The notes under the pieces: generated by a model
The model's database searches: none
Seen by the model: only the letters and a program-made list of their open reading frames with translations
Told to the model about the DNA's origin: nothing
DNA from: Herbidospora sakaeratensis
GTDB lineage: Bacteria; Actinomycetota; Actinomycetes; Streptosporangiales; Streptosporangiaceae
Direction of reading: 5' to 3'
DNA: 64,000 nucleotides
Assembly (NCBI RefSeq): GCF_001570525.1
Contig: NZ_BBXC01000007.1
Span: 1,248,679 to 1,312,678, forward strand
In this document: piece after piece, positions 6,031 to 60,399 of the stretch
Numbering within the stretch: the stretch's first letter is position 1
Layout of the letters: every line of letters begins with the position of its first letter
Translations under genes and position numbers: made by a program

Positions 6031-6056
6031 ACTGTACGAAACGGTTTCGTACAGTT
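6030..6056. promoter_or_regulatory. 27-bp perfect palindrome, probable TetR operator
   Basis: Arms AACTGTACGAAAC and GTTTCGTACAGTT (13 bp each) flank a single G at 6043. The right arm ends five bases before the ATG of the TetR gene at 6062. The length and perfection fit a TetR dimer-pair operator. Its position over the place where a promoter and leader must lie suggests tight autoregulation and a very short or absent 5' leader. Confidence 0.75.
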
Positions 6057-6061
6057 GGGGC

Positions 6062-6652
6062 ATGCCGATGGACTCCCCGCCCCGTTCCCGCATGAAGCCC
6101 GAGCGGCTCGCCGAGCTGTTCGAGGTGGTTCGCGCGTTGCTGCTGGACGCCGGCTACGAACGGCTCACCTTCGACGCCGTGGCGGTCCGGGCCCGGATGA
6201 GCAAGGCGACGTTGTACCGCCATTGGGGAGGGAGCAAGGCCGACCTGGTCATGGCCGCCCTCACCGAGCATCGCCCGGCCCTGCCCGACCACGCCGGGGC
6301 GACCTCGCTCGACCAGGTGTTCGCCGAGATGGCCCCTGCCGACGGCATGCCGACCCGCGACCTGCGCATGGGACTCATGCTGCTGCACGCGGCGGCGGCC
6401 GACCCCGGCTTCGGCGCCGCGCTGCGCGCGGAGATCATCGCGCCGGCCGTGAACACGCTGGCCGGGGTCTTCGAAGCCGCGGCCGACCGGGGCGAGATCG
6501 TGCGCGACTCGCCGCTGTTCCGGCGGCTGGCCCACGTGATCCTCGCCGACCTCGCCCTCTCGCCCCTGATCAGCGGCCGCGAGGAGAACGCGGCGTCCCG
6601 GCGCGAGCTGTTCCGGACGGTCATCCGGCCGGCGCTCACCTTCACGTCATGA
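6062..6652 (+). CDS. TetR/AcrR family regulator
   Basis: The 196-residue protein has an N-terminal helix-turn-helix: LTFDAVAVRARMSKATLYRH followed by W-GGSKADLVMAAL, the canonical TetR layout. The C-terminal half is a helical ligand domain without a recognisable class. ATG 6062 is chosen because MPMDSPPRSRMKPERL leads into the HTH and the palindrome lies directly upstream. Its TGA overlaps the ATG of the following reductase-like gene (ATGA), so it probably controls itself and that gene. Confidence 0.9.
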   Translation: MPMDSPPRSRMKPERLAELFEVVRALLLDAGYERLTFDAVAVRARMSKATLYRHWGGSKADLVMAALTEHRPALPDHAGATSLDQVFAEMAPADGMPTRDLRMGLMLLHAAAADPGFGAALRAEIIAPAVNTLAGVFEAAADRGEIVRDSPLFRRLAHVILADLALSPLISGREENAASRRELFRTVIRPALTFTS

Positions 6653-7520
6653 GGATCCTCGTGTACGGCGCCGGGGTCGTCGGCAGCCAGTACGCCGTCC
6701 GCCTGCACGAGGCCGGGCACGACGTCTCGCTCCTGGCCCGGGGCGAGCGCCTGGCCTCCCTGCGCCGCCACGGGGTGCGGCTCGCCGAAGCCGGCAGCCC
6801 GGCCGTCCGGCGGATACCGGTGCCGGTGGTCGACCACCCGGCCGACGGATACGACCTGACGCCGTGCCGGTCCGCACCCATCAGGTCGACCCCGTGCTGG
6901 CCTCGCTCGCCGACCTCGACGGCGCCGTGCTGTTCCTGCACAACTGGGCGGCCGGGGCGCGGGCGCTGGGCGCGGTGATCGGCCACGAGCGGGTCCTGCT
7001 CGGCTTCCCCGCGGCCGGCGGCACCATGGAGGGCGACGTGGTCCGCTACCGCGCGGCCAACGTCCTGACCCGCCGGGTCGGCATGCCCATCGGCGAACCC
7101 GACGGCCGTGCCACCCCCCGGCTGGAACGGATCGTGACGGCGTTCCGCGCCGCCGGATTCAACGCCAGGGCCGAACCCCGGATGGAGGCCCGGCTCAGGA
7201 CGCACGCCGCGGTCACGGTGCCCCTCGGGCTGGCGGTGCGGGCGGCGGGCGGCCCGGTCGCCCTGGCCGACGACCGGGACGCCGTCCGCGGCATGCTCCA
7301 CCTCGTGCGGCGGAACCTGGCGGCCCTGCCGGCGCGCCCGGTCCCACGCGGCCTCGACGCGCTGCGGACGCTGCCGGAAGGGCTGCTCGTGGCGGTGGTG
7401 CGGCGCTTCCTGCGGAGCCCGACGGCCGTCCACAGCGGACTCAGCAACACCGCGCCCGCCGAGAGGGCCGAACTCGAGCGGCTGGCCGAGCAGATGCGGG
7501 CCGGCGCGAGGGGCCGGTAG
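6649..7520 (+). pseudogene. Ketopantoate reductase-like (ApbA/PanE) gene, frameshifted
   Basis: The N-terminal part, MRILVYGAGVVGSQYAVRLH, is a classic NAD(P)-binding GxGxxG start of the ApbA/PanE family. After GYDL (codon ending 6858) the frame is lost, and the protein resumes one frame away at PVRTHQVDPVLASL, continuing to the stop at 7520 with the expected downstream domain. Inserting one base between 6859 and 6863 restores a continuous chain of about 290 residues. The original function would be reduction of a 2-oxo acid such as ketopantoate, but many paralogues act on other substrates. It is coupled to tetR by ATGA. It may be a real pseudogene or a sequence error. Confidence 0.8.
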
Positions 7521-7571
7521 GCGGCAGGTGGCGGTATCCAAGCGGGGTGCAAGTCGGCGCTGGCATGCTGA

Positions 7572-7587
7572 TCCCGAATTCTCGGGA
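7572..7587. promoter_or_regulatory. Inverted repeat over the ribosome-binding site of the DUF5685 gene
   Basis: TCCCGA-ATTC-TCGGGA forms a 6-bp stem with a 4-base loop. Its right arm contains part of the GGGAAGG Shine-Dalgarno sequence (7584-7590) of the TTG-initiated gene at 7599. In RNA the hairpin could mask ribosome binding; in DNA it could be an operator. Confidence 0.4.
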
Positions 7588-7598
7588 AGGATCATGGT

Positions 7599-8672
7599 TT
7601 GTTCGGGATTGTTCGGCCCTGCAAGCACAACCTGTGCGGCGGCCTGTTCGCCGAGTGGACGGCCCACCTGTGCGGCCTCTGCGTGGCACTCCGCGACGAG
7701 CACGGCCACGCCGCGCGGCTCGTCACCAACTACGACGGCCTGCTGGTCTCGGTGCTGACCGAGGCCCAGTCGAAGGAGACCCGGCACCGCCGCGCCGCCC
7801 CCTGCGCCCTGCGCGGGTTCAAGGGCGCCGACATCAGCGAGGCCGAGGGGGTCCGGCTGGCCGCCGCCGTGTCGCTGATCCTCGCGGCCGGCAAGCTCGC
7901 GGACCACGTCGAGGACGGCGACGGCCCGTTCGCCCGCCGGTTCGTCGCCGCGGGCGGCACCCGGCTGGCCGAGCGGTGGGCGCGGGCGGGCACGGCCACC
8001 GCCGGGGCGCTGGCGTTCGATCCGGGGCCGCTGCTGGCGGCCGTACAGGAACAGACCCGGGTGGAACGGCTGCCGGGCGGCTCCCTGCTCCAGCTGACGG
8101 CCCCGACGGAGGACGCCGTCGCGGCGGCGTTCGGGCACACGGCGGTGCTGGCCGGGAAACCCGGCAACCGGGAGACGCTGGAGGAGATGGGCCGCTACTT
8201 CGGGCGGCTGGCCCACCTGCTCGACGCCGTCGAGGACCTCGACCGCGACCGCGCGCAGGGCGCCTACAACCCGCTCGCCGCCTCCGGCACCGACCTGGCG
8301 ACCGCGCGGCGGCACTGCGACGACGCGGTCGACGGCCTCCGGCTGGCGGTCGCCGACCTCGACCTCGAACGGCGCGGCCTGGTCAGGGCGCTGCTCGTCA
8401 AGGAGACGGGCCGCGCCGTCGGGCGCACCTTCGCCGAGGCGGAGGCCCCCCGCAAGGACCCCCGCCTCAAGCCCGACCCCGGCGGCCTGACCTCGTTGTT
8501 GTGCACGTCGGCCGCCTGCTGCACCTGCGGGCTCTACCGCCCGCCGTGGGACGAGGAGCGGTACAACTCATGCACCGAACGGTGCGATTGCAGCGGCTGC
8601 GACGCGTGCTCCAACTGCTGTAACGGGTGCTCGGGCTGCTGCGAGTGTTGTGACTGCTCCTGCGACTGCTAG
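7599..8672 (+). CDS. DUF5685 family protein with cysteine-crowded C terminus
   Basis: The 357-residue protein begins MFGIVRPCKH, the start I recall for DUF5685 proteins of actinomycetes. It starts at TTG 7599, with GGGAAGG eight bases upstream. The body is helical and contains NYDGLLVSVL, LADHVEDGDGPFA and HLLDAVEDLDRDRAQGAYNP; their Asp-rich helices recall the all-alpha isoprenoid-synthase fold, though this is only a resemblance. The last 60 residues hold 19 cysteines in CC, CxC and CxxC spacings, and N-terminal HLCGLC adds more, suggesting metal binding. No signal peptide. Function unknown. Confidence 0.8.
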   Translation: MFGIVRPCKHNLCGGLFAEWTAHLCGLCVALRDEHGHAARLVTNYDGLLVSVLTEAQSKETRHRRAAPCALRGFKGADISEAEGVRLAAAVSLILAAGKLADHVEDGDGPFARRFVAAGGTRLAERWARAGTATAGALAFDPGPLLAAVQEQTRVERLPGGSLLQLTAPTEDAVAAAFGHTAVLAGKPGNRETLEEMGRYFGRLAHLLDAVEDLDRDRAQGAYNPLAASGTDLATARRHCDDAVDGLRLAVADLDLERRGLVRALLVKETGRAVGRTFAEAEAPRKDPRLKPDPGGLTSLLCTSAACCTCGLYRPPWDEERYNSCTERCDCSGCDACSNCCNGCSGCCECCDCSCDC

Positions 8673-9010
8673 CACTTCGGGGCGACGGCGTCGACCTTGG
8701 CGCCGAAGTCGCGGTCGTCGTACACCTTGCGGAAGTCGCCGCCGCGCACGACGCGGGTCTCCTTCTTCGACGGCACTTCGATCCAGTTGACGAAGCACCC
8801 GTCGGAGGTGGCCCGGAAGGAGCCCACGTTGTCGTGCAGCGCCGGCGGCACGTCGACGTAGCCGTCGCCCGGGTTCCAGCACCACGACGAGCCTTTGTAT
8901 TCGCGGCCGCTGAACATGCAGATGTCGCCGGGCGTCGCCTGGGCGGCGGGCGCCGCGGCGGTCAGGGAGGCGAAGGCGAGCAGGCCGGCGAGGGTGGCGA
9001 TACGGATCAT
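8669..9010 (-). CDS. Secreted peptidase inhibitor family I36-like protein
   Basis: The precursor of about 113 residues has a Sec signal peptide (MIRIATLAGLLAFASLTAAA, cleavage near AQA-TP). The mature part, with GDICMFSGREYKGSSWCWN, DNVGSFRATSDGC and a C-terminal KC, matches the small disulfide-containing beta-gamma-crystallin-like proteins related to the Streptomyces metalloproteinase inhibitor (I36). It would act outside the cell, perhaps against metallopeptidases. An alternative in-frame ATG lies at 9022. It is downstream of, and on the same strand as, the M14 peptidase gene but separated by a strong terminator. Its last 4 nt overlap the end of the convergent DUF5685 gene. Confidence 0.7.
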   Translation of the reverse strand: MIRIATLAGLLAFASLTAAAPAAQATPGDICMFSGREYKGSSWCWNPGDGYVDVPPALHDNVGSFRATSDGCFVNWIEVPSKKETRVVRGGDFRKVYDDRDFGAKVDAVAPKC

Positions 9011-9074
9011 GCTGCCGACCATAACCCCGGGTGATCGGGTGGATCCCGTAGGCGACGTACCGGAAAAGGGAAAA

Positions 9075-9102
9075 GCCCGGCCGGGGTGGCACCCGGCCGG
9101 GC
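9075..9102 (-). terminator. Intrinsic terminator of the M14 peptidase gene
   Basis: GCCCGGCCGGG, a 6-base loop and CCCGGCCGGGC form a perfect 11-bp stem 16 nt after the peptidase stop codon. Read on the minus strand the hairpin is followed by CTTTTCCCTTTTCC, a U-rich tail, so it should end transcription of the peptidase gene. Confidence 0.8.
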
Positions 9103-9117
9103 CTCTTCTCACACGGG

Positions 9118-11913
9118 TCAGCCGACGACCGAGCGGAGCGGGATGCCCGTCGCGTTCAGCTCGTTGACCAGGTCACGCAGGAAGGGGTGCTCGTGGATGT
9201 CGAGGCCCTCCGGGTTCGGGATCGTCAGGTAGGACGACCCGGCCGCGCTGGCGACCGTCGCGGTGCCGGTGTACTTCGCGACCACGGCCTGGGTGCGGGC
9301 GAGGTCGGCGTCGGCCACCTGGATCTGGAACGGACGCCACTCGCCGCCGATCAGCGGGGTCTCCTCCGCCGGGGCGGCGGGGGCGGCGGCCCGGGCCGAG
9401 GCGCGCTTCTGGGCGGCCGGCGTGGCGGCGCCCTCCGGCATCAGCAGGGCGTTGGCGACCAGGTGGATGCCGTTCTCGTTGTACGCCCGGAACAGCGGGT
9501 TGTACGCGAACAGCACCGCGTGCCCGGCCCCGGTCGGCTCGTTGGTCAGCGCCACCGAGCCCTTGAGGGCGTCGGCGCCGTTGGTGGTGCCGTTCACCCA
9601 CCAGGAGCCGTCGGTCGGGTAGGTCAGGACGTTGGTCCCGGTGGTCGACGGGTTGAGGATCGGGTCGCCGTTGTTGAACTGGAAGTCCTCGGCCGGGCGG
9701 CCCAGGGCGACGGCGTCCGACGTCGCGGTGTCGACCCGGAAGTGCGAGCCGATGACCTGGTAGCCGGTCGGCTTGGTCTTCTCGGTGGTGCTGGTCAGGC
9801 CGGCCGCGCGGGCCACGCGGGTGCCCTGGTTGCGCAGGCCGATGTACGTGCCGCCGTTGGCCACCCACGCCTTGAGGTTGGCCTGGCCCTGGGCGGTCAG
9901 GCCGCCGGTGGCGTTGCTGCCGTCGGGCATCAGCAGGACGCCGCGCTCGGTGAAGGCGGCGGTGTTGTTGTTGACGTCGGCGGTGGTGACCGGCTTGAGG
10001 GTCAGGCCCCACTTGGCGCCCAGGACGAAGCGGGCCTCGCCGTAGGAGCCGGAGGTGGTGCTGACGCCGGTGCCGTTGTAGAGGCCGACGTCGGGGGTCT
10101 TCAGGAGCGTGCCCGAGGGGGCCGCGCCGCTGCCAATGACGGTCACGCCGAGGGAGGTGGCGAGCGCGTCGAGGTCGTTGCGGCCGATCTCGCCGGGCGA
10201 GAAGGAGACGACGCCGGTGGAGAGGTCGCGCTGGAGCGCGACGCCCTGGCCGAGGAGCTTGAAGGTCAGCTCCGAGGCGGCGGCGGAGTCGAGCGGGTAG
10301 GAGAAGGAGCCCTTCTTCGACGCGCCCTGGGCGACGCCGCCCTCCATCCTGCGGACCAGCTGGGCCTGCGGCGACACGACGTCACCGCTGTAGACCGTGT
10401 CGACGCCCGCCAGGAGCGGGTTGCTCCAGGAGGAGACGTCGTAGAAGTACGGGAACGGCACGTACGGGTCCTCGCCGAGCGTCGCCTGGATCCAGTGCTT
10501 CTGCGGCTGGGCCATCGGGATGTAGTACGAGCCCTCCGGGATCACCTTGTCCGTCTCGGACCGGCCGCCGAAGATCTTGGCGTTGGGCACCGTGAGCGGC
10601 TTGGTGAGGCGGTAGACCTCGACGTCCATCTGACGCAGGCGCTCGACCAGCTTGCGCACGTCGCCGAGCTGACGGTCGTTCAGCAGGAAGTACGAGCGGA
10701 TCTTGACGTCCGGAACGGGGAACTGAACGGTGTTGGTCGGCTGCACGACCTCGTTCGGCTCCAGCACGCCCTGCTCGCCCTCGGCGAGCGCGGTCTTCCA
10801 GATGTCCCAGTAGCTGCCGAGGATCTCGTGCTTGTTGGCGGCGGCCCAGCCCGTGGTGGCCCACTGGGTGTTGAACTGCTGCTGCACGCGGTCGGGGACG
10901 GCCGAGGAGGAGCCCTTCTCGAACGTCATGCCCGCGGCGCCGAACCCGGTGGCCGGGACGGTGTCGCCGTAGCCCATGTAGAACATGTCGTACGTGGCGT
11001 AGTTGAAGTAGCACTCGACGGTCACCGAGCCGCCGCACGCGCCGTTGAAGCCGAAGCCGGCCTTGTTGGCCTCGCCGATGCGGTTGATCCAGTCGACCGG
11101 CTGGTCGGCGATCTCGTGGTGGATCGGGTCGGCGTTCGGCGGGAAGAAGTACTGCCGCCCGCCCATCTCGTGGGCGTCGATGAAGACCTGCGGCGGGTAC
11201 TTCCGCAGCAGCTCCAGCTTGGCGTCGGTCTCCTTCTGGGTGCGCGCGAACCAGTCGCGGTTCAGGTCGAAGCCGTACTCGTTCTGCCGGCGGCTGGCGT
11301 CGCGGCCGTCGGGGTTCTGCGTCGGCACGATGATCGTGAGCAGGTTGTCGTTGCGGTTCTTGACGTCGCACGACAAGCCCGACGCGAGCTCGTAGAGCGT
11401 CTGCAGCGAGGCGTCGGCGCCGCTCTTCTCGCCGCCGTGCACGTTGCCGGCCACGTAGACGATCGCGGGCACGTCCTGCGCGATCTTGGCGGCCTTGGCG
11501 TCGGTCTGGGTGCGCGGGTCCCGCAGCGACACGATGTCGTCCGCGATCTTCTTCAGCCGCGCGTCGGTGACGTTGGCCGCGTTCGACACGATCGCGTAGG
11601 GCATCTCGGTGCCCAGGACGCTGTCGGTCATGACGCCCAGCCGCACGCGGTCGGAGGCGGCCCCGACGGCGTGGGTGTAGTCGATCAGCTCCTGGCTGGT
11701 CAGGATCCGGGTCTGGCCCGTGCCCAGCGGGAAGCCGAAGAACTGCTGGGGGCTCGGGACCGACGCGATGTGGGCGGGGTCGGTGGAGCAGTCGGCCGCG
11801 GCCGACTGCGCCGAGGCGGTCGGCGTCAGGGTGAGGCCGGCCGCCACCAGCGTCGCGGCGCCCAGTGCCGCGACGTAGGGGGATTTTCTGCGCATGATCG
11901 CGCGAAACCGCAT
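9118..11913 (-). CDS. Secreted M14 family zinc carboxypeptidase with GATase1-like C-terminal region
   Basis: The 931-residue precursor carries a signal peptide ending near ASAQS. The M14 domain (about 70-400) has the zinc motif NVHGGEKSG (H159, E162), the third ligand H247 in FIDAHEMGG, and probable catalytic E331 in GMTFEKGSS. It therefore looks like an active extracellular metallocarboxypeptidase. Later, VLLMPDGSNATGGLTAQG and LKAWVANGGTYIGLRN resemble a glutamine-amidotransferase/ThuA-like flavodoxin fold often appended in these long actinomycete peptidases. GGAGG lies five bases before ATG 11913. It is monocistronic, with its own terminator. Confidence 0.9.
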   Translation of the reverse strand: MRFRAIMRRKSPYVAALGAATLVAAGLTLTPTASAQSAAADCSTDPAHIASVPSPQQFFGFPLGTGQTRILTSQELIDYTHAVGAASDRVRLGVMTDSVLGTEMPYAIVSNAANVTDARLKKIADDIVSLRDPRTQTDAKAAKIAQDVPAIVYVAGNVHGGEKSGADASLQTLYELASGLSCDVKNRNDNLLTIIVPTQNPDGRDASRRQNEYGFDLNRDWFARTQKETDAKLELLRKYPPQVFIDAHEMGGRQYFFPPNADPIHHEIADQPVDWINRIGEANKAGFGFNGACGGSVTVECYFNYATYDMFYMGYGDTVPATGFGAAGMTFEKGSSSAVPDRVQQQFNTQWATTGWAAANKHEILGSYWDIWKTALAEGEQGVLEPNEVVQPTNTVQFPVPDVKIRSYFLLNDRQLGDVRKLVERLRQMDVEVYRLTKPLTVPNAKIFGGRSETDKVIPEGSYYIPMAQPQKHWIQATLGEDPYVPFPYFYDVSSWSNPLLAGVDTVYSGDVVSPQAQLVRRMEGGVAQGASKKGSFSYPLDSAAASELTFKLLGQGVALQRDLSTGVVSFSPGEIGRNDLDALATSLGVTVIGSGAAPSGTLLKTPDVGLYNGTGVSTTSGSYGEARFVLGAKWGLTLKPVTTADVNNNTAAFTERGVLLMPDGSNATGGLTAQGQANLKAWVANGGTYIGLRNQGTRVARAAGLTSTTEKTKPTGYQVIGSHFRVDTATSDAVALGRPAEDFQFNNGDPILNPSTTGTNVLTYPTDGSWWVNGTTNGADALKGSVALTNEPTGAGHAVLFAYNPLFRAYNENGIHLVANALLMPEGAATPAAQKRASARAAAPAAPAEETPLIGGEWRPFQIQVADADLARTQAVVAKYTGTATVASAAGSSYLTIPNPEGLDIHEHPFLRDLVNELNATGIPLRSVVG

Positions 11914-12201
11914 GTCGCCTCCAGGGCGGAGGGGACGGGGGTGCTCGGGAGAGGGAACCCGTCCGAGGGAGTACGAAAGCCACTGCGGACGGTAATGGAA
12001 CGGTAAAAACAGGACAAGGGACAGGAAAACTCAACAAAACACTGTCAAAACCTGTGGTATCTCACATATTACCAGGTCACATAGGTCCCGCTGGTCCCTG
12101 ATGTCCCTTTATAACGCCCGATAACGACTGGGCCTCGTCTTCGCAACCTCGGGAACTGCGGTTTCCCGTCACGGCTCCACCCGACCGAGGCGGGCCACCC
12201 G

Positions 12202-12600
12202 TCAGGACCGGATCTGATCGGCCGGAGGGGCGGTCACGGTCGTGTCGTCCCAGTCGGAGTAGACGATCTCCGTGGCGGTCCTCGCGCTCAGCCGCTGCCG
12301 CACCGGCCGCCCCGGCGCCGTCTCCTCGTCTCCCATCCGCATGTACGCGACGCCGTCGGCCCGGATGAGCCGCCCGCGCAGGCCCCCGCCCAGATCGGCG
12401 AAGACATCCTGGTCGGGGCCCTCGGTGATCATGGTGGCGCGCGCGGTCCCGTTCGTCGCCGCCCGTTCGACGTCCGGGTGCGCCCGCAGGTACGCCTCCA
12501 CGTATGCGCCGATCTCGGCGGCGGTCTTCGTCTCCGGACCGCAACCCGCCACCAGCAGCGCCACCACGGCGATCACCACATATCTGGGCACGCCGGGCAT
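12202..12600 (-). CDS. Putative lipoprotein, unknown function
   Basis: The 132-residue precursor has a signal peptide with lipobox LVAGC (Cys20), so it should be anchored on the outer face of the membrane. The mature part contains AEIGAYVEAYLRAHPDVERAA and a beta-rich region with GGGLRGRLIRADGVAYMRMG. I do not recognise a family; the layout suggests a small beta-barrel or cystatin-like fold. It lies 44 nt downstream of the YdeI-like gene on the same strand. ATG 12600 fits the signal peptide; no strong ribosome-binding site is seen. Confidence 0.65.
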   Translation of the reverse strand: MPGVPRYVVIAVVALLVAGCGPETKTAAEIGAYVEAYLRAHPDVERAATNGTARATMITEGPDQDVFADLGGGLRGRLIRADGVAYMRMGDEETAPGRPVRQRLSARTATEIVYSDWDDTTVTAPPADQIRS

Positions 12601-12644
12601 GCTCGCACGGCCACGTGCAGAAACCTCCGCGCGTGACGTGGAGA

Positions 12645-13211
12645 TCACGTGCAGAAAGGTCGCGGGACGTCCGGCGTCCGCTCGCCCTGGAGGTCGTCGA
12701 GGGCCTTCTTCAGCCGGGCCGCCCGCGCCTCCGGGGTGCGGGCCTTGAGCAGCGGCAGCACCAGCAGGTAGCGGGCAGTGCGATCGAGCCCCTCGAAGGC
12801 CGCCCGTGTGGCGGGGTCGAGCGCCGCCTCCAGGTCGGCGGGCACCGCGAACTCGCTCTGGGCCGCGTAGGCGGCGTCCCAGCGGCCGTCGGCGCGGGCC
12901 CGTTCGACCTCCGCGAGCCCCGGCGGGCGCATCCGCCCCGCCTCGGTGAGGGCCTCGACGCGGCGGACGTTCACCCGCGACCACGGGCTGCCGCGCCGCC
13001 GCCGCGAGAACCGCTGCAGGTAGCTGTGCTCGTCGTGGCCCTTGCGCTGGCTGTCGATCCAGCCGTAGCAGAGCGCCACGTCGAGCGCCTGGCCGATGGT
13101 GATCGACTCCAGCGGCGCGCCCTTCTTGGCGATGCGCAACCACACGCCCTCACCGGCGTGGTTGGCCGACAACCAGGTCTCCCACGCCGCCGCGTCCGGG
13201 AAGTGCATCAT
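12645..13211 (-). CDS. YdeI/OmpD-associated family protein
   Basis: The 188-residue cytoplasmic protein has the family features WETWLSANHAGEGVWLRIAKK, ALDVALCYGWIDSQRKGHD and the RRRGSPWSRVN basic stretch, then a C-terminal LKKALDDLQ region. Members are widespread but functionally obscure; some are linked to cationic-peptide responses. ATG 13211 overlaps the stop of the VOC gene (ATGA), so the two are coupled. The chain ends in PRPFCT. Confidence 0.8.
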   Translation of the reverse strand: MMHFPDAAAWETWLSANHAGEGVWLRIAKKGAPLESITIGQALDVALCYGWIDSQRKGHDEHSYLQRFSRRRRGSPWSRVNVRRVEALTEAGRMRPPGLAEVERARADGRWDAAYAAQSEFAVPADLEAALDPATRAAFEGLDRTARYLLVLPLLKARTPEARAARLKKALDDLQGERTPDVPRPFCT

Positions 13212-13597
13212 CGGCCCAGCATCTCCAGGTAGTGGGGGTTGTACATGACGCCCAGCACGTTCCCGAACGGGTCGGCGACCGCGGCCGTCACGAAGCCCTC
13301 GCCGCGGTCGGTCAGCGGCAGGTGGGGCGTCGCGCCCAGCTTCAGCAGCCGGTCGAGCGCCTCCGCCACGTCGTCGACGTGCCAGTGGGCCACCGCGCCG
13401 CCGGGGCGGGCCGGGGCGCCGTCGGGGGCGTACCGGGAGTCGGCGACGCCCAGTTCCGCCAGGTGGTCGCCGATCCGGAACTCCACGTACCCCGGCACCT
13501 CGAAGTAAGGCGCGACGCCGAGCACCTCGGTGTACCACTCCTTGGCGGCCGTCAGATCGTCGGCCCAGAACGTGATGGTGGCGAGTCCGCGCAACAT
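13208..13597 (-). CDS. VOC family (glyoxalase/bleomycin resistance fold) protein
   Basis: The 129-residue protein has two beta-alpha-beta-beta-beta halves: ATITFWADDLTAAKEWYTEV and VAHWHVDDVAEALDRLLKLG, ending DPFGNVLGVMYNPHY. These are typical of VOC proteins; metal ligands are not conserved clearly enough to name a reaction. It is translationally coupled to the YdeI-like gene. It lies divergent from the WYL regulator across a 25-bp dyad, so that regulator probably controls the VOC-YdeI pair. Confidence 0.85.
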   Translation of the reverse strand: MLRGLATITFWADDLTAAKEWYTEVLGVAPYFEVPGYVEFRIGDHLAELGVADSRYAPDGAPARPGGAVAHWHVDDVAEALDRLLKLGATPHLPLTDRGEGFVTAAVADPFGNVLGVMYNPHYLEMLGR

Positions 13598-13636
13598 GGG
13601 TCACTCCCTTTCGTCTCTCCTCGCACAGTAGGCACG

Positions 13637-13661
13637 ATCGCGGAACGTACGGTTCCGCGAT
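13637..13661. promoter_or_regulatory. Perfect dyad between WYL regulator and VOC gene
   Basis: ATCGCGGAAC, GTACG and GTTCCGCGAT form 10-bp arms around a 5-base centre. The dyad ends 11 nt before the regulator's ATG (13673) and lies 39 nt from the VOC start. It is the obvious operator for the divergent pair. Confidence 0.7.
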
Positions 13662-13672
13662 TGACTGGCACC

Positions 13673-14605
13673 ATGCTGGAAACCTCCGTCAGGCTGCTCC
13701 GCCTGTTGTCCCTCCTCCAGTCGCGCCCCGACTGGGGCGGTCCCGAACTGGCCGCCCGGCTCGGTGTGACCGGCCGGACCGTCCGCAACGACGTCGAGCG
13801 CCTGCGGATCCTCGGGTACGAGATCCGCTCCACCCCGGGCGTGGCGGGCGGCTACCGGCTCGGCGCGGGCGCGGCCCTGCCGCCGCTGCTGCTCGACGAC
13901 GAGGAGGCGGTGGCCGTCGCCGTCAGCCTGCACGCCGCCGCCGGGGGCACCGTCACCGGCATCGAGGAGACCTCGTTGCGGGCGCTGACCAAACTCCAGC
14001 GCATGTTGCCCTCCCGGCTGCGCCACCGCATCGACGCCGTCGGGGTGGCCACGGTCTCCGTCGCCCGGCGCGGCCCGACCGTCGACGCCGCCACCCTCAC
14101 CCACATCGCCGCCGCCGTCCGCGACCGCGAACGCCTGCGCTTCGACTACCGGCTGCGCGACGGCACGCCGGGCGTGCGCGAGGTCGAGCCGCACCGGCTC
14201 GTCTACACCGGCCGCCGCTGGTACCTGCTGGCCTGGGACGTCGCCCGCGCCGACTGGCGCACCTTCCGCGTCGACCGGGTGCGGCCCCGGGCGCCCAACG
14301 GACCGCGCTTCACCCCGAGGGAACCCCCGGCCGACGCCGCCACCCAGGTCATGCGCGGCGTCGGCTCGGCCGCCTACCGGCACCCGGCCCGGGTGCGGCT
14401 GCACGCCCCGATGGAGCGGCTGACCGAACTGCTCACCCCGGCCGCCGGGGTGCTCACCGACGACGGCGTGCTGGAGACCGGCGGCGACTCGCTGGGCGAC
14501 CTGGCGGCCTTCCTCGGCAGTCTCGGCGTCGACTTCACCGTGCTCGACCCGCCCGAACTGAAGGATCACCTCCACCGATTGGCGGGGCGATATGCCCGGG
14601 CCTGA
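13673..14605 (+). CDS. WYL-domain (YafY-type) transcriptional regulator
   Basis: The 310-residue protein has an N-terminal DeoR-like HTH, with LAARLGVTGRTVRNDVERLR at about residues 23-42, then GYRLGAG and a WYL domain containing HRLVYTGRRWYLLAWDV and TFRVDRV. A C-terminal WCX-like segment follows. WYL proteins sense nucleic acid or small ligands and act as repressors or activators. It starts at ATG 13673, eleven bases after the dyad, and is divergent from VOC-YdeI. Close family members often pair with VOC proteins. Confidence 0.88.
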   Translation: MLETSVRLLRLLSLLQSRPDWGGPELAARLGVTGRTVRNDVERLRILGYEIRSTPGVAGGYRLGAGAALPPLLLDDEEAVAVAVSLHAAAGGTVTGIEETSLRALTKLQRMLPSRLRHRIDAVGVATVSVARRGPTVDAATLTHIAAAVRDRERLRFDYRLRDGTPGVREVEPHRLVYTGRRWYLLAWDVARADWRTFRVDRVRPRAPNGPRFTPREPPADAATQVMRGVGSAAYRHPARVRLHAPMERLTELLTPAAGVLTDDGVLETGGDSLGDLAAFLGSLGVDFTVLDPPELKDHLHRLAGRYARA

Positions 14606-14653
14606 CTACACTCGGCACCCGAGTCCGTGATGCCCAGACGGGAGCCGACCGAC

Positions 14654-17600
14654 GTGACCGGGCCAGCCCACCCCGACGGCCGAGGTCCCCTGCGCCTGCG
14701 GATCCTCGGCCCGCTCCGGCTGTGGCGCGACGGCGCCGAACTCGACGCCGGGCCCCGGCAGCAGGCGCAGCTGCTGGCCCTCCTGCTGGCCCGCGCGAAC
14801 CGCCCGGTCACCACCCGCGAGCTGATCGACCTCCTGTGGGGCGACGACGCCCCCGCCAGCGCCCTCAACATCATCCAGAAGTACGTCGGCGCGCTGCGGC
14901 GCCTGCTCGAACCCGCCCTCCCCGCCCGCGCGGCCGGCGCCTACCTGCACCGGCGCGTCGACGCCTACGTCTTCGAGGCCGGGCCCGGCACGCTCGACCT
15001 CCTCGACTTCCGCGACCACCTCGCCGCCGCCCGGACCGCATCGAAGGAGCACGCACCCGACACCGCGCTCGACCACTACGCGGCGGCGCTCGGCCTCTGG
15101 CACGGCCACGCGGGCGACGGCCTGGCCCTCGAACCGGCCGCCGCGCCCGTCCTGACCGCGCTCGACGACGAGTTCCACGCCGCCTGCGTGGCGGCGGCCG
15201 GCCTCGCCGTGGCGGCGCACCGGCCCGAGCGGGTGCTCCGGGCGCTGCGGCTGGCCGCGTCGATGGCGCCGTTCCACGAGCCCGTGCACGCCGCCCTCGT
15301 CACCACCCTGGGCGCGTCCGGACGGCAGGCCGAGGCGCTGTCGGCCTTCCACGCCATCCGCGACCGGCTCGCCGAGGAGCTCGGCATCGACCCCGGCCCG
15401 GCGCTGCGGGCCGCCCAGGAGAGCGTGCTGGCGCCTCACCCGGCGGCCCCCGCCGGGCCCCGGCCCGCGGCCGGGCTGGTCGGCCGGGCCGAGGAGCTCG
15501 CGGTGTTGCGGCGGGCCGTCGAGGCGGCGTTCACCGGCGGCAGCGGGCTCGGCGTCGTCGAGGGCGAACCGGGGGCCGGGAAGACGCGGCTGCTGGAGGA
15601 GACGGCCGCCGCCGCCGTCCGGCGCGGCGCGCTCGTCGTGCGGGCCTCCTGCCTGGAGGGCGACGGCACGCCGTCGATGTGGCCGTGGGAGCAGGCGCTC
15701 ACCGGGCTCCTCGACGCCCTGCCCGCCCCGGCGGGGGAGAAGTGGCGGGCGGGGGAGCTCGGCCGCGTCCTCGACGGCGGCGGCGACCAGGCCGGGCCGC
15801 CGGTCGCCGGGAGCCGGGCCCAGTTCCGGCTGTTCGAGCAGGCGGTCGGCGTCATCGGCCAGGCGGCCGCCGAACGGCCGGTGGTGCTGGTCATGGACGA
15901 CCTCCAGTGGATCGACCCGGCGTCGCTCCAGATGTTCGGCCACGTGGCGGGGCGGCTGCCCGCCGGGGCCGCGATCGTCTGCGCCCTGCGCGACCGCGCC
16001 CCCGCCCCCGGCGCCGCCCTGGCGCAGGCGCTGGCCGCCGCCGGTCGGCTGCCCGGCCACCACCGGATCAGGCTCGGCCCGCTCGGCCTGACCGACGTGG
16101 CCGAACTCGTCCGCCGCGAGACCGGCCGGCCGCCCGCCCCCGACGTCGCCCGCGACATCCACGCCCGCACCGAGGGCAACCCCTTCTTCGTCCGCGAACT
16201 GGCGCGGCTGCTCAGCGACCGGGGCGCGCTGGGCGTGCCGGCGACCGTGCGCGACGTGGTCCGCGACCGGATGGCCGGCCTCGACGACGACGCCCGCGAA
16301 CTGGTGCGCCTCGCGGCGGTCATCGGCCGCGACGTCGACCTCGGGCTGCTGGCCCGGGCCGCCGGGATCGGCGTCGCTGGCTGTCTCGAACGCCTCGAAC
16401 CGCTGCGCGCCCTCGGCCTGCTCGAATCCGACCCGCACGACCCGTTCGCGTGGCGGTTCGCGCACGACCTGGTCCGCGAGTCGGTCACCGAGACGACGGA
16501 ACACTGGCGGGGCGTCCGGCTGCACCTGCGCGTCGCCGACGCGCTGGAGCAGCACGGGGCCGACGACGAGTCCGTCATCGAGCGGCTCGCCTTCCACCTG
16601 TGGGCGGCGCGGGTGCTCGCCGACCCGGTCCGCGTCGTGGAGGCGCTGAAGCGCGCGGGCCGCCGTGCGGCCAACAAGCTCGCGTTCGCCGCCGCCGACC
16701 GCCACCTGGAGTCGGCCGCCGACCTCGCCCGCGGCGCCGGGCTCCCGGAGCTCGAACTGTCGGCCCTGTCGCTGCTGGCCATCGCCCCGCGCCGGCAGGC
16801 CGGGTTCGGCGGCACCACCTTCGACCTGCTGGAGCGCGCCGAGCTGCTGGCCCGCCGGCTCGGCCGCGAGGTCGAGGCGGCCGGGCTGCTGTTCGCCCGC
16901 CTCTTCGGGGCGTACACCTTCATGGAGTGGGACCGCGCCGCGCTGGTCCGCCGCCTCTACGAACAGGGGGAGGCGTCCGCCGATCCCGTCGTCCGCGTCT
17001 ACGGCCGCCAGGCGTGGGGCCTGCACCAGTGGGACGTCGGCGAGATCGGCGAGGCCTACCGGTTCTTCCGCGCCAACGACCCCGCCCTCCTGGAGGGGGT
17101 CGTCTCCGCGCACAGCGACACCCCGATCAGGCGCGACGTGTCGGGCGAGTGGCCCGGCTGGCTGGCCGTCGTGACGGCCATGCACGGCGACGTCGGCGCG
17201 GCGCTCGCCGCGATCGACCGGTGGAACGGCCCCGACGACTCCTACGCGGTCGCGACCTGGGTCTACTACGTCTCCATCATCGCGTCGATGGCCGGCGACG
17301 CCGACGGGGTGATCCGCGCCGTCGACCGGTGGATCGCCGTGGGCACCGGCCGCGCCGCCATCCAGCAGGAGCTCTACATCCGGCTGAACTGGTGCTGGGC
17401 CCGCGCCCTCACCGGCGACGACCCCGCCGGCGTCACCGAGGAGGCCGAACGGCTGATCGCCGGCTTCACGGAGCCCCCGCGCTGGGGCGTCGCCTACCAC
17501 CACGCCCTGATCGCCGAGATGTGGCTGGCCGTCGGCGACGCCGGCCGGGCGGCCGCCGCCCTCGGCCGGGCCGGCCACGCGCTGGAGACCTACGGCCAGC

Positions 17601-51238: not shown

Positions 51239-51398
51239 GACGCCTCCAGGCGAGTCACGCGCTTGCCCGCCGCACCCCGCGACGGACCAGGTCTTCACCC
51301 GGGGCACCCCGCCGCGGACGCGAGGGTTGCCGGCCAGCAAGCCGGGGCTGTGCGCTGGCACTCATGACCTTCGCGAGGACTATAACATCCCGTTTCGG

Positions 51399-51413
51399 AT
51401 CTACTTTGTAAAG
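51399..51413. promoter_or_regulatory. Shared motif, copy 1
   Basis: ATCTACTTTGTAAAG matches copy 2 (55202-55216) at 14 of 15 positions, in the same orientation. It overlaps the last codons of gntR and lies 161 nt upstream of the aminotransferase ATG. TATAGT (minus strand, about 51377-51382) nearby could be a -10 box for the aminotransferase. Confidence 0.4.
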
Positions 51414-52153
51414 GCACCGGTCCAGTGCAACGACAGGTCGGTCGCCTTGCGCTCGGCCCGGATCTCCATCCACTCGCCGAGGATCGTGGCGTGGTCGACG
51501 ACGATCGGCGTGCCCCGGTCGTCGTAGGTGACACGCTCGCTGACGAACACCGGGCCGCCCGCCGGGCGGCGCAGCCGCGCCGCCACGGGGGCGGTGAGCA
51601 GGGCGGGCCTGATGCGCTCGGTGGCCCGGTGGATGCGCGCGCCGGCGTCGGCGAGGGCGGTGTAGAGGGGGACCTCGGTGAAGTCGGCCGCCCTGACGGC
51701 CGAGGCGTGCGGCTCGGCGACCCACGAGATCTGGTGGACGACGGGCCGGTCGCCCAGGTGGCGCACCCGGACCAGCCGGAGGGCCCGCAGTCCGGCCGGC
51801 GCGTCGCCGAGCAGCCGGGTGAGGGAGCGCGGGGCCGGTCGCAGCGCGGCCGAGACCACTTCGGTGCGCAGCGGATGCCCCTGCCTGCGCAGGTCGTCGC
51901 CGAGGCTGCGCAGGGTGTCGAGCGGGTATTCGGCGCCCGGCCGCGTCACGTAGGTGCCCCGGCCGGCCCGCTGCTCGATCAGGCCCTCGCCGCTGAGGAC
52001 CTGCAACGCCTGCCGCAGCGTCATCATCGTCACGCCGTAGGAGGCGCTGAGCTCACGCTGCGCGGGCAGGGCCTCGCCCGCGCGGTAGTGACCCGACCTG
52101 ATCTTGTCGCTCAGGTCGTCGGCGATGACGCGGTAGCGGGGCGTGCTGCTCAT
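51401..52153 (-). CDS. GntR family regulator with UTRA domain (HutC subfamily)
   Basis: The 250-residue protein has a winged HTH (YRVIADDLSDKIRSGHYRAG, LPAQRELSASYGVTMMTLRQ, GLIEQRAGRGTYV) and a C-terminal UTRA ligand domain (about 90-245). HutC-type regulators bind dyads such as the DasR box ACTGGTCTAGACCAGT; the palindromes before trpB closely resemble it. The gene starts 8 nt after trpA, so it belongs to the trpBA transcript and is probably autoregulated. The ligand might be an indole, anthranilate or amino-acid derivative. Confidence 0.92.
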   Translation of the reverse strand: MSSTPRYRVIADDLSDKIRSGHYRAGEALPAQRELSASYGVTMMTLRQALQVLSGEGLIEQRAGRGTYVTRPGAEYPLDTLRSLGDDLRRQGHPLRTEVVSAALRPAPRSLTRLLGDAPAGLRALRLVRVRHLGDRPVVHQISWVAEPHASAVRAADFTEVPLYTALADAGARIHRATERIRPALLTAPVAARLRRPAGGPVFVSERVTYDDRGTPIVVDHATILGEWMEIRAERKATDLSLHWTGAFTK

Positions 52154-52161
52154 CGGGCTCC

Positions 52162-52932
52162 CTAGTCGAGTGCGCGGCGCATGCTCGCCACATACTCTCC
52201 CAGTTCACGCGGCCGGGCGCCGTCGAGAAGGCGGCGCATCAGGGCCGAGGCGACCACGACGCCGTCGGCGTGCCGGGCGAGCTCGGCGGCCTGGCGCGGG
52301 CTGGAGACGCCGAAGCCGAACAGGACCGGCCGGTCGGTGAGCTCCTTGAGCTCGCGGCCGAGCCGGGCGGCCTGCTCGGGCACCTCGTCGCGTTCGCCGG
52401 TGGTGCCCATGCGGGTCAGCGCGTAGACGAAGCCCCGGCTGCGCGCGGCGATCTCGCCCAGCCGGGCGCGGGGGGTCGACGGCGCGGCCAGCAGCACGAG
52501 GTCGAGGCCCTCCTTCACGGCGGCGTCGGCCAGCTCGCCGGCCTCCTCCAGCGGCACGTCGGGCACGATGAGCCCGCGCAGCCCGCTCATGGCCAGCGCC
52601 GCGCAGAACTTCGCGCCGCTCCGCTGGAAGACCAGGTTTCCGTACGTCATCGCGACCAGCGGCACCCCGACGTCGAGCGCCGTGACCTCGTCGAGGATGC
52701 CGGTGACCGTGGTCCCGGCGGCGATGGCCCGGTCGGAGGCCTCCTGGATGGTGACGCCGTCGAGCATGGGGTCGGAGAAGGGGAAGCCGATCTCGACGGC
52801 GTCGGCCCCGGCGTCGGCGTAGGCGCGGACGACGTCGGTCCATCCGGGGGCGGCCCCGGCGGTGACGTAGGGCACCAGCAGGCGCCCGGTGGCGCGGCGG
52901 GCGAGCAGGAACGTTTCCAGGGACGTGGTCAC
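52162..52932 (-). CDS. trpA: Tryptophan synthase alpha chain
   Basis: The 256-residue TIM barrel has the catalytic Glu in DAVEIGFPFSDPMLDG and the catalytic Asp in PMLDGVTIQEAS; the phosphate-binding loop FGFGVSS is intact. It cleaves indole-3-glycerol phosphate to indole, which is channelled to TrpB. GTG 52932 overlaps the trpB stop (GTGA). No trpC, trpD or trpE gene is adjacent, unlike a standard biosynthetic trp cluster, so this may be a second or specially regulated copy. Confidence 0.92.
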   Translation of the reverse strand: MTTSLETFLLARRATGRLLVPYVTAGAAPGWTDVVRAYADAGADAVEIGFPFSDPMLDGVTIQEASDRAIAAGTTVTGILDEVTALDVGVPLVAMTYGNLVFQRSGAKFCAALAMSGLRGLIVPDVPLEEAGELADAAVKEGLDLVLLAAPSTPRARLGEIAARSRGFVYALTRMGTTGERDEVPEQAARLGRELKELTDRPVLFGFGVSSPRQAAELARHADGVVVASALMRRLLDGARPRELGEYVASMRRALD

Positions 52933-54098
52933 AGCAGCTCCTTGATGGACGCGATGTCCTTGTCTCCCCGGCCCGACAGCGTCAGCATCACGGACGACCC
53001 CGGCGCGATCCGGCCGGATCCGGCGGCCCTGATCACCCAGGCCAGGGCGTGGCACGACTCCAGCGCGGCGACGATGCCCTCGGTGCGGGCCAGGCGCACG
53101 AGCGCCCGGACGACCTCCTCGTCGGTGACGGTCGCGTAGCGGGCCCGGCCGCCGTCGCGCAGGTGGGCGTGCTCGGGCCCGATGCCCGGGTAGTCGAGCC
53201 CGGCCGCGACCGAGTGGGCCTCGGTGACCTGGCCGTGTTCGTCCTGGAGCACGAGCGAGCGGAAGCCGTGCAGGACCCCGGCCCGGCCGGAGGTGGCCGC
53301 CGCGCCGCCTTCGGCCTCGACCCCGACGAGCCGGGCGGTGGTGCCGACGAACCCGGCGAACGTGCCGGCGGCGTTCGACCCGCCGCCGACGCACGCGACC
53401 ACGTAGTCGGGCACCGCGGCGGGCAGTTCGGCGGCGCACTGGGCGCGGGCCTCCTCGCCGATGACACGCTGGAACTCGCGCACCATCCACGGGTAGGGGT
53501 GCGGGCCCAGCACCGAGCCGAGGCAGTAGTAGGAGTCGTCGGTGGACGCCACCCAGTGGCGCATCGCCTCGTTGCAGGCGTCCTTGAGGGTCCGGCTGCC
53601 GGTGGTGACGGGCACGACCTCCGCGCCGAGCACGTTCATGCGCAGCACGTTGAGCTCCTGGCGCTCGATGTCGCGCTCGCCCATGAACACGGTCGCCCGG
53701 AGCCCGAGGAGCGCGGCGGCGGTGGCGGTGGCGACGCCGTGCTGCCCCGCGCCGGTCTCGGCCAGCAGCCGCCGCCTGCCCATGCGCTGGGCGAGCAGCG
53801 CCTGGCCGACCACGTTGTTGATCTTGTGGGAGCCGGTGTGGGTGAGGTCTTCCCGCTTCAGCAGCAGCGTGACGCCGAGCTCCTCGGACAGCCGCCGGGC
53901 GGGGGTCAGCGGGGTGGGGCGGCCGGCGTACACGGTGAGCAGGGTGGTCAGCCGGTCGCGGAACCCGGGGTCGGCCCAGGCGTCGCGGAACGCGGCCTCG
54001 ATCTCCTGGCAGGCCGGGATCAGCGACTCCGGCACGTATCGCCCGCCGTAGTCGCCGAACCGGCCGGTGGTCCCCGGGTCGCTCATCAGGGTGGTCAT
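52929..54098 (-). CDS. trpB: Tryptophan synthase beta chain
   Basis: The 389-residue PLP enzyme has K92 in HTGSHKINN, AETGAGQHGVATATAAAL, the PLP-phosphate loop CVGGGSNAAG and GLDYPGIGPEHAHL, typical of TrpB1-type subunits that partner TrpA. It condenses indole with serine. GGAGGA precedes ATG 54098. Two tandem palindromes, 17-47 nt upstream of the ATG, overlap the place where the promoter must lie, so transcription is probably blocked by the GntR protein encoded two genes downstream. Confidence 0.93.
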   Translation of the reverse strand: MTTLMSDPGTTGRFGDYGGRYVPESLIPACQEIEAAFRDAWADPGFRDRLTTLLTVYAGRPTPLTPARRLSEELGVTLLLKREDLTHTGSHKINNVVGQALLAQRMGRRRLLAETGAGQHGVATATAAALLGLRATVFMGERDIERQELNVLRMNVLGAEVVPVTTGSRTLKDACNEAMRHWVASTDDSYYCLGSVLGPHPYPWMVREFQRVIGEEARAQCAAELPAAVPDYVVACVGGGSNAAGTFAGFVGTTARLVGVEAEGGAAATSGRAGVLHGFRSLVLQDEHGQVTEAHSVAAGLDYPGIGPEHAHLRDGGRARYATVTDEEVVRALVRLARTEGIVAALESCHALAWVIRAAGSGRIAPGSSVMLTLSGRGDKDIASIKELL

Positions 54099-54114: not shown

Positions 54115-54145
54115 CTGTTCTAGAACAGCATCTGTTCTAGAACAG
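54115..54145. promoter_or_regulatory. Tandem palindromic operators before trpB
   Basis: CTGTTCTAGAACAG occurs twice (54115-54128 and 54132-54145), each a perfect 14-bp palindrome, separated by CAT, giving a 17-bp repeat period. The GTTCTAGAAC core resembles the GGTCTAGACC core of HutC/DasR-type sites. They lie in the 59-nt gap between the hemerythrin-fusion gene and trpB. Confidence 0.85.
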
Positions 54146-54157
54146 TACCTCACGGAG

Positions 54158-55009
54158 TCACGGACGCGCCGGAGGCCACGGGATCTCCGCCAGGAGGGGA
54201 AGCAGCACCTCCTCCTCGTAGTCGAGGTGCGCGGTCAGCTCCGCCGCCATGCGGTCGAGTTCGGCCCGGAACCGCCGGGGGTCCGCGCCGCCGATGTCGG
54301 CGAGCAGGGAGGCCAGGTCGCCCTGGATGCGCGCGACGGTCCGGTGTTCGGCGGCGAGCCGCTCGAAGACGCCGGCCAGGTGGGGGTGGTGCGGGGCCAT
54401 GCCGGGGAACAGGTGGCCGTCCTCGCTGGTGTGGTGGAACTCCAGCGCCTGGCAGAACGCCAGGCAGCGCTGCCGGATCTGCAGGCCGAGGCTCGGGGGT
54501 TCGCCCGGCTGGGCGGCGAAGTGGGCGTCCACCTCCGCGCGCACGTGGCGCAACTGCCCGCGCAGCCAGGTGTGGACCTCGACGAGCTTGTCGGCGAGAT
54601 TGGCGATCACGCGCGGTTCGCCGGGATCGGCGCGCTCCAGGACCACGACCGGGGGCGTGCCGGTGGTCTGGGCGCGGTGGTCGTGGTGGCCGGGGGAAGC
54701 GCGCACGACCTGCTCGAACAGCTCGTCGTGGCCGGCGGGTGTCGCGGGGGCGTTCAGGGCCTCGAACAGTTCGTCGCGCCGGGTTCCTTCGGCGGGCACC
54801 GCGAGGGCGTCGAAGGTCTCGCCGCCCAGTTCGACGCGGACGGCGGGATGGGCGAGCAGGTCGTCGTACCAGCCGGGGGAATCGTCCGGGCCGGAGCCGA
54901 CGACCAGCAGCAGGTCGCCGTGGCGGACATAGGGCAGGGGAGTGGTGGTCGGCTCGCCGGACGTCGCGCCGGTGGTGGTGAGCAGCAACAGGTCTGATGG
55001 CGTGGGCAT
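54158..55009 (-). CDS. Deazaflavin (F420)-type nitroreductase fused to a hemerythrin domain
   Basis: The 283-residue protein has two parts. Residues 1-120 (LLLTTTGATSGEPTTTPLPYV, GDLLLVVGS, WYDDLLAHPAVRVEL) match the F420-dependent nitroreductase/Ddn split-barrel family. Residues about 130-275 form a four-helix hemerythrin domain with iron-ligand candidates in LVEVHTWLR, EFHHTSEDGHLFPG, AAEHRTV and AHLDYEEEVLLP. It may reduce quinones or nitro compounds while sensing or binding O2 or NO through a di-iron site. It starts at ATG 55009 and ends 59 nt before trpB. Confidence 0.85.
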   Translation of the reverse strand: MPTPSDLLLLTTTGATSGEPTTTPLPYVRHGDLLLVVGSGPDDSPGWYDDLLAHPAVRVELGGETFDALAVPAEGTRRDELFEALNAPATPAGHDELFEQVVRASPGHHDHRAQTTGTPPVVVLERADPGEPRVIANLADKLVEVHTWLRGQLRHVRAEVDAHFAAQPGEPPSLGLQIRQRCLAFCQALEFHHTSEDGHLFPGMAPHHPHLAGVFERLAAEHRTVARIQGDLASLLADIGGADPRRFRAELDRMAAELTAHLDYEEEVLLPLLAEIPWPPARP

Positions 55010-59624: not shown

Positions 59625-59633
59625 GATCATGAC

Positions 59634-59726
59634 ATCGCGGGAGCCCGGCGTACCGGGCTGAGAGTGCGGCTGGAACGGCCGCAGACCGCTTGAACCTGAC
59701 CGGGTCATGCCGGCGTAGGGAGAAGG
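59634..59726 (+). ncRNA. TPP riboswitch (THI element)
   Basis: The conserved core is unmistakable: CTGAGA (59658-59663), ACCTGA (59694-59699) and CATGCCGGCGTAGGGAG (59706-59722), with the P2 stem GCCCGG/CCGGGC and a short P3 arm GCGGC/GCCGC. Thiamine diphosphate binding would hide the GGGAGAAGG ribosome-binding site that ends the aptamer, so control is probably at translation initiation. It precedes tenA. Confidence 0.95.
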
Positions 59727-59733
59727 TCTCATC

Positions 59734-60399
59734 ATCAGCACGTTCAGCGACGGGTTGTGGGACGCCGCGGCCCCCATCTATCAGGCGATCCTCCGTCATC
59801 CGTTCATCACCGGGCTCGTCGACGGCACGCTGCCCCGGGAGGCGTTCCGGCACTTCGTCGTCCAGGACTCCCACTATCTGCGCGACTACGCCCGCGCGCT
59901 GGCGGTGTGCGCGGCCAGGGCGCCCGACGAGGACGTCACCCGCGCGTTCGCCGGTGACGCGGTGGGGGCGATCGCGGCCGAGCGGGAGATGCACGCCGCG
60001 TTCATGGCCGACCTGGGCGGGTCGGCCGAGGAGGCGGCGGCGCAGCCGGTGGGGCCGACGACGCGGGCGTACACGAGTTACGTGCTGGCCACGGTGTACG
60101 GCGGTTCGTTCCTCGACGGGCTGGCGGCGGTGTTGCCGTGTTACTGGATCTACGCGCGGGTGGGGGCCGACCTGCTGGCGCGGTCGTCGCCCGATCCGCT
60201 CTATCGGCGGTGGATCGCGGCGTACGGGAACGAGGAATTCCAGGAGACGGTCCGCCGGGTGGTGGCGCTGGCCGACCGGCTGGGCGGGGAGGCGACGGAG
60301 ATGCAGCGGGCGCGGGCGGTGGAGCACTTCACGGCGACGGCCCGTTACGAGTGGATGTTCTGGGACGCGGCCTGGCGGCGGGAGTCCTGGCCTCTGTGA
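59734..60399 (+). CDS. tenA: TenA family aminopyrimidine aminohydrolase (thiaminase II)
   Basis: The 221-residue enzyme has VQDSHYLRDYARAL (conserved Asp), active-site Cys in AVLPCYWIYARVG and a C-terminal Glu in TARYEWMFWDAAW. It salvages thiamine pyrimidine breakdown products. A TPP riboswitch precedes it. The GGGAGAAGG site lies 7-8 bases before ATC 59734, which would give (M)STFSDGLWDAAAP, the expected TenA N terminus. The first standard in-frame start, TTG 59755, is 28 bases from that site and truncates the protein. So either ATC initiates or an ATG was mutated or misread. It overlaps DUF6010 by 55 nt. Confidence 0.88.
   Translation: MSTFSDGLWDAAAPIYQAILRHPFITGLVDGTLPREAFRHFVVQDSHYLRDYARALAVCAARAPDEDVTRAFAGDAVGAIAAEREMHAAFMADLGGSAEEAAAQPVGPTTRAYTSYVLATVYGGSFLDGLAAVLPCYWIYARVGADLLARSSPDPLYRRWIAAYGNEEFQETVRRVVALADRLGGEATEMQRARAVEHFTATARYEWMFWDAAWRRESWPL

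Follow-up and report, generated by a model that had tools for sequence, protein, structure and literature searches.

A second tryptophan synthase operon with its own GntR/UTRA regulator in Herbidospora sakaeratensis: a possible mobile module relieved by indole-3-glycerol phosphate

The stretch of 64,000 nucleotides analysed here (the window, positions 1248679-1312678 of contig C7) carries a second tryptophan synthase, encoded by contiguous trpB, trpA and gntR genes behind two identical palindromes, in a genome that also has a canonical trpC-trpB-trpA. We propose that operator, trpB, trpA and gntR form a self-contained unit that has apparently moved between genera, in which the GntR/UTRA protein would bind the palindromes before trpB and repress the operon, its own gene included, until a small phosphorylated ligand releases it. 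This ligand should have a less polar head and would most likely be indole-3-glycerol phosphate (IGP), on which the encoded enzyme itself acts. With a repressor released by IGP, this extra and complete tryptophan synthase would be made only when IGP from the single TrpC outruns the housekeeping TrpBA. As a whole, the proposal of a mobile, autoregulated and IGP-relieved module seems to us about equally apt to prove right or wrong; from the comparisons below, relief of repression by some pathway intermediate is rather probable, and the narrower claim that IGP is the ligand of the GntR/UTRA protein falls slightly short of an even chance. If right, the module would make a clean system of regulator, operator and ligand, in effect an IGP sensor whose ligand is predicted to be a phosphorylated indole. 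It would also raise the question of what makes it worthwhile to carry a portable duplicate of the final step in a housekeeping pathway. The features concerned are these:

51401-52153, minus strand: gntR, regulator with GntR winged helix-turn-helix and UTRA domains (250 aa; PF00392 + PF07702); NagR/YvoA is its best solved relative
52162-52932, minus strand: trpA, module copy (256 aa; PF00290, TIGR00262), with a GTG start at 52932
52929-54098, minus strand: trpB, module copy (389 aa; PF00291, TIGR00263), without the 8-residue block of housekeeping TrpB
54115-54128, no strand: palindrome CTGTTCTAGAACAG, putative operator copy nearer trpB, with equivalents 5' of trpB in other loci
54132-54145, no strand: palindrome CTGTTCTAGAACAG, exact second copy of the putative operator, 17 bp further upstream
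C7:62958-63713, strand not given: sole IGP synthase (TrpC) of the genome, from the genome search
C7:63839-65810, strand not given: housekeeping trpBA, from the genome search

The layout given in a preliminary description of this DNA, two identical palindromes 17 bp apart directly before trpB and a contiguous trpB-trpA-gntR with 4-nt and 8-nt junctions, is borne out: the trpB stop and the trpA start share a GTGA overlap of 4 nt, and 8 nt separate trpA from gntR. Both palindromes are perfect over 14 bp and occupy the interval 17-47 bp upstream of the start codon of trpB, between that codon and the 3' end of a gene (54158-55009, minus strand) encoding a fusion of an F420H2-dependent reductase domain with a hemerythrin domain; in four Herbidospora species, as in the window, this fusion gene immediately precedes the module. 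A GGAGGA between the palindromes and trpB is a likely ribosome-binding site, and a simple scan for a promoter or terminator at the module recognised none. Shuffles predict 0.01 copies of the sequence TTCTAGAA in the 64 kb window, which has two, and the two copies of the 14-mer are the only exact ones in the 8.6 Mb genome. A chance origin of the palindrome was rejected on the strength of these shuffles, the genome-wide count and conservation across the named loci. The same description had suggested a hunt for more operator sites, but none exists in the genome at zero or one mismatch to the 14-mer, and a wide regulon was rejected accordingly; allowing as many as three mismatches yields 254 places, fewer than the 379 found with a reversed control, and these are therefore noise.

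The housekeeping trpC-trpB-trpA lies on the same contig, about 1.24 Mb from the module, and its TrpB is 56% identical to that of the module. Given this separate operon and a single trpC, the module is an extra tryptophan synthase that shares one IGP pool. The two sets of genes have the same two subunits in the same order, but the housekeeping copy differs in having trpC alongside, in retaining the 8-residue block in TrpB, and in lacking an operator copy at zero or one mismatch. None of the six chorismate-binding enzymes of the genome is encoded within the window, nor does the window hold a member, besides the module trpBA, of the trp families searched genome-wide (trpA, trpB, IGP synthase and chorismate-binding enzymes). 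For those families the earlier statement that no other trp genes lie nearby is upheld; the genome search for a second trpBA, also proposed there, found the canonical operon, so the single trpBA that would have spoken against a dedicated pair is not the situation here. A trpBA set aside with an operator and a GntR/UTRA regulator of its own is thus supported.

Within the family, presence of the module is patchy, with 43 of 150 sampled genomes positive for its GntR protein, and all 43 have two or more trpA matches; among the 107 GntR-negative genomes, 90 have one trpA match, 14 have two and 3 have none. In view of those 14, the idea that every extra trpA represents the module was rejected. Four of them were inspected: the extra copy is a canonical-like trpBA in G070 and G097, in G119 the trpA is canonical-like and trpB is represented by no more than a fragmentary match, and G076 has a trp precursor cluster. 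The housekeeping trpB is retained in 22 of 22 module-bearing family genomes checked, at 68% or more to that of the window genome, and stands at 62% in the module-bearing genome G685.

The trio itself is strongly conserved. Its order and strand are kept in all 40 fetched loci (L079 being partial) and in all 80 named loci (L141 and L145 partial), two sets that overlap, on which ground an accidental neighbourhood of gntR and trpBA was rejected; two remote modules, whose GntR proteins are only 34-36% identical, keep both as well. No further neighbour is conserved, since the other frames of 22 representative loci matched at most 13 other loci, at scattered positions. Weak relatives (L176, L178-L181) have no trpB or trpA match within the 3.6-3.7 kb examined. 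The record of Nonomuraea gerenzanensis has no annotation at the locus. Sphaerisporangium album (L079 / L141) has a decayed module, in which the operator and gntR are kept while most of trpB and part of trpA are missing, so that the module can evidently be dispensed with.

Conservation extends to the operator. Read by eye, the upstream regions of the 40 loci contain TCTAGA- or TATAGA-centred sites, and the pattern GTT[AC]TA[GT]AAC derived from them occurs exactly upstream of trpB in 79 of the 80 named loci, with which the 40 overlap; the one miss is a truncated bin (L145). With up to two mismatches to this pattern, two or more sites are present in 71 of the 80, against a background of 0.077 sites per 280 bp. 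The commonest spacing is 20 bp (55 spacings), and 17 or 18 bp in the closest Herbidospora loci. Outside the set that supplied the pattern, the remote modules have TGTTCTAGAACG and CTTCTAGAACT just 5' of trpB. Against this conservation, the site in L093 and L094 reads CTTCTAGAAG. The exact double palindrome of the window is rare, being found in 2 of 394 genomes of the class, its own and one of its genus; G033 and L095-L098 have a double site.

The regulator belongs to the HutC (UTRA) subfamily of the GntR superfamily, with 73.8 bits to PF00392 and 86.1 bits to PF07702, both above cut-off, but at 100.1 bits against a cut-off of 220 it falls outside the HutC equivalog, the histidine utilization repressor (TIGR02018). 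The palindrome of the NagR type is TGGTCTAGACCA. In the NagR structural work, Arg38 reads G-5 and Arg48 reads G-4, the half-sites are six nucleotides apart and the wing is anchored by Gly69 (PMC4333415). On residue equivalences from a profile alignment to 2wv0, R33 corresponds to Arg38 and is arginine in 80 of 81 sequences, and M43 corresponds to Arg48 and is L, M or I in all 81. In the window palindrome, with halves CTGTTCT and AGAACAG, position -5 is G and position -4 is T; loss of the Arg48 equivalent coincides with loss of G-4, and the Arg38 equivalent and G-5 are both kept. A repressor of the NagR/DasR type would have both arginines, with GG in the site, and here the Arg48 equivalent and G-4 are missing. 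Counting against a simple fit, L093 and L094 retain R33 despite a C at operator position -5, and no residue cleanly explains C or A at -2: when the base is C, position 43 can be either M or L, and when it is A, the residue is L. That the GntR/UTRA protein binds this operator is very likely from the comparative data, namely the conserved trio, the conserved operator and the remote modules. The resemblance to NagR (YvoA) and DasR, GntR/HutC repressors and the best solved relatives of the module regulator, covers domain layout, a palindromic site centred on TCTAGA and the phosphate-site arginines (PMC4333415, PMC4918961). The module regulator departs from them in lacking the Arg48 equivalent and G-4 and in having its amino-sugar contacts replaced, and its predicted control is local where theirs is a wide regulon.

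The effector pocket bears on the nature of the ligand. According to the same work (PMC4333415), NagR contacts phosphate through Thr90, Ser165-Ile166-Tyr167, Arg133 and Arg135, the sugar through Phe89, Glu145, Tyr228, Ser88, Arg211, Glu222 and Ala224, and the acetyl group through Ile209 and Ser226. The equivalents of Arg133, Arg135, Ile166 and Tyr167 are R129, R131, L163 and Y164, invariant in 81 of 81 sequences, and R207 and S83 are each kept in 80; the Thr90 and Ser165 positions vary, their commonest letters reaching 38 and 62 of 81, and pocket position L84 is kept in 73. The sugar contacts are replaced by Q141, S205, D220 and A222 (81/81), V218 (80/81) and I224 (79/81). Of 15 pocket positions, 12 are at least 97% conserved, as are 24 of the 151 positions in the rest of the effector domain (Fisher p 6e-7, a value made too favourable by the relatedness of the sequences). 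When the phosphate site is conserved and the head less polar, IGP fits, as a lead rather than proof; the Arg-X-Arg phosphate motif, being widespread among HutC proteins (PMC4918961), points only weakly to IGP. For both NagR and DasR, effector binding is reported to lower operator binding (PMC4333415, PMC4918961).

As regards the enzymes, the module TrpB is a true TrpB (TIGR00263, 533.5 bits against a cut-off of 392.45) and lies outside the TIGR01415 group, often called TrpB2 (168.1 against 518.85). Equivalents of K87, E109, H115, D305, E350 and S377, in Salmonella numbering, are present in all 81 module sequences, Q114 in 78 and N236 in 80. There are fixed differences from housekeeping TrpB, among them the absence of an 8-residue block (the G-x-E-T-G-x-H segment) in 81 of 81 module sequences and in none of 31 housekeeping rows; the same gap appears against ancestral and Thermus TrpB structures and, by eye, in both remote modules. 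We take the deleted block to be approximately residues 260-267 of Salmonella TrpB, adjoining Gly268 of the monovalent-cation site, and with this placement cation dependence or alpha-beta signalling may differ in the module enzyme. Such a natural TrpB variant would be useful for the study of alpha-beta allostery. The module TrpA scores 203 bits to TIGR00262 (cut-off 102.35) and retains its two catalytic acids, Glu and Asp, in all 79 sequences, which argues for action on IGP and against pure scavenging of indole.

In accounting for the spread of the module, we consider three observations together. A quick tree (81 rows, 880 columns, LG+G4, SH-aLRT only) was built from the concatenated module proteins, and its genus labels require 37 changes against a minimum of 23; the starred branches force at least two changes each for Herbidospora, Streptosporangium, Acrocarpospora, Sphaerisporangium and Microtetraspora, at least three for Planotetraspora and at least four for Nonomuraea, and a branch with support of 100 unites Nonomuraea pusilla and Planotetraspora thailandica. 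The trio is also present (L218; NZ_CP121764.1, 180838-189557) on a 431-kb Prescottella equi plasmid, so annotated, where a divergent histidinol-phosphate transaminase gene lies upstream and a gene of the PLP-dependent aminotransferase family downstream. The mixed genera of the tree, together with the shifting neighbourhoods and the copy on a plasmid, suggest horizontal transfer between genera; labels alone are no proof, and old paralogy with loss is a possible alternative.

Other roles for the module can be set against these observations. The GntR protein might sense tryptophan as a co-repressor, or another end-product signal, making the module a booster in tryptophan limitation. Where TrpR controls trpBA, repression as a rule depends on tryptophan, Chlamydia trpRBA included (PMC7755916); however, tryptophan would not need the residues that hold phosphate in NagR, which are invariant here, and a co-repressor would act in the opposite sense to the effectors of NagR and DasR, so that we think feedback control of this kind unlikely. 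The preliminary description had offered indole scavenging as one purpose of the pair, external indole and serine being converted to tryptophan as in Chlamydia (PMC7755916), and TrpB can indeed use free indole. Yet trpA is part of the module in every locus examined, a pure indole salvager would have no need of its intact catalytic acids, and the genome makes IGP through its TrpC; the suggestion therefore finds no support, and we consider it very improbable.

A tryptophan-derived product was the other purpose put forward there; the module would then supply precursor, and a related genome (L212) does have a second trpBA in a trp precursor cluster. That copy, however, is of another type, retaining the 8-residue block and having no match to the module GntR within the stretch; around the module itself no further neighbour is conserved, which leaves the proposal unsupported, and the next downstream gene in the window has its own riboswitch. 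We would give precursor supply a marginally slimmer chance even than scavenging. A different kind of role, which we regard as decidedly unlikely, is that of a mobile target-bypass unit with a remodelled beta subunit: an inducible synthase insensitive to a natural TrpAB inhibitor would have spread by transfer among soil actinobacteria and would keep tryptophan synthesis going under a competitor's inhibitor, triggered by the inhibitor itself or by the IGP that builds up once the housekeeping enzyme is blocked. The patchy presence, changing neighbourhoods, genus mixing and plasmid copy would all be in keeping with this, as would the fixed differences in TrpB with their deletion, but the inhibitor is hypothetical, and the module has no biosynthetic or resistance gene as a conserved neighbour. 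This reading, if true, would imply that natural TrpAB inhibitors await discovery and would likewise provide an IGP-sensing UTRA protein.

Pseudomonas and Chlamydia already offer examples of trpBA pairs that have a transcription factor to themselves, and we found no description of GntR/UTRA control of trpBA, or of such a second trpBA module, among the open-access titles and abstracts searched; in the text consulted of PMC13055916, Herbidospora appears once, in the reference list. The precedent for IGP control of trpBA is Pseudomonas TrpI (PMC9105386), where trpBA stands apart from the other trp genes, a dedicated regulator gene adjoins it and IGP, the ligand proposed for the module, is the inducer. 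TrpI is LysR-type, unlike the GntR/UTRA regulator of the module, which is probably a repressor; trpI is divergent, whereas the module gntR is last in its operon, and the module trpBA is a second copy. The trpRBA operon of Chlamydia trachomatis similarly unites trpB-trpA and a regulator gene, but its TrpR is tryptophan-dependent, unrelated to the module GntR and first in the operon, and the organism salvages indole without de novo tryptophan synthesis, unlike the module host (PMC7755916 for Chlamydia).

Some features around the module are of separate interest. A SAM-IV riboswitch (51254-51369, minus strand, 100.5 bits) lies between gntR and a class V PLP gene, which is cysteine-desulfurase-like; it overlaps the mechanical frame start at 51361, so the real start of this gene is probably near 51238. 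Membership of either the class V or the F420/hemerythrin gene in the operon was rejected because, outside the window, four Herbidospora species are the only ones in which they adjoin the trio; with the riboswitch separating it from gntR, the class V gene is probably outside the trp operon. A TPP riboswitch (59627-59738, plus strand, 67.6 bits) is found just 5' of a frame at 59755-60399 that is TenA-like by eye. In L212, at about 6000-14800, the second trpBA, of another type, sits, on our own reading, amid trpE-, trpG-, trpD-, trpB-, trpA- and DAHP-synthase-like frames, a cluster that possibly serves a tryptophan-derived product.
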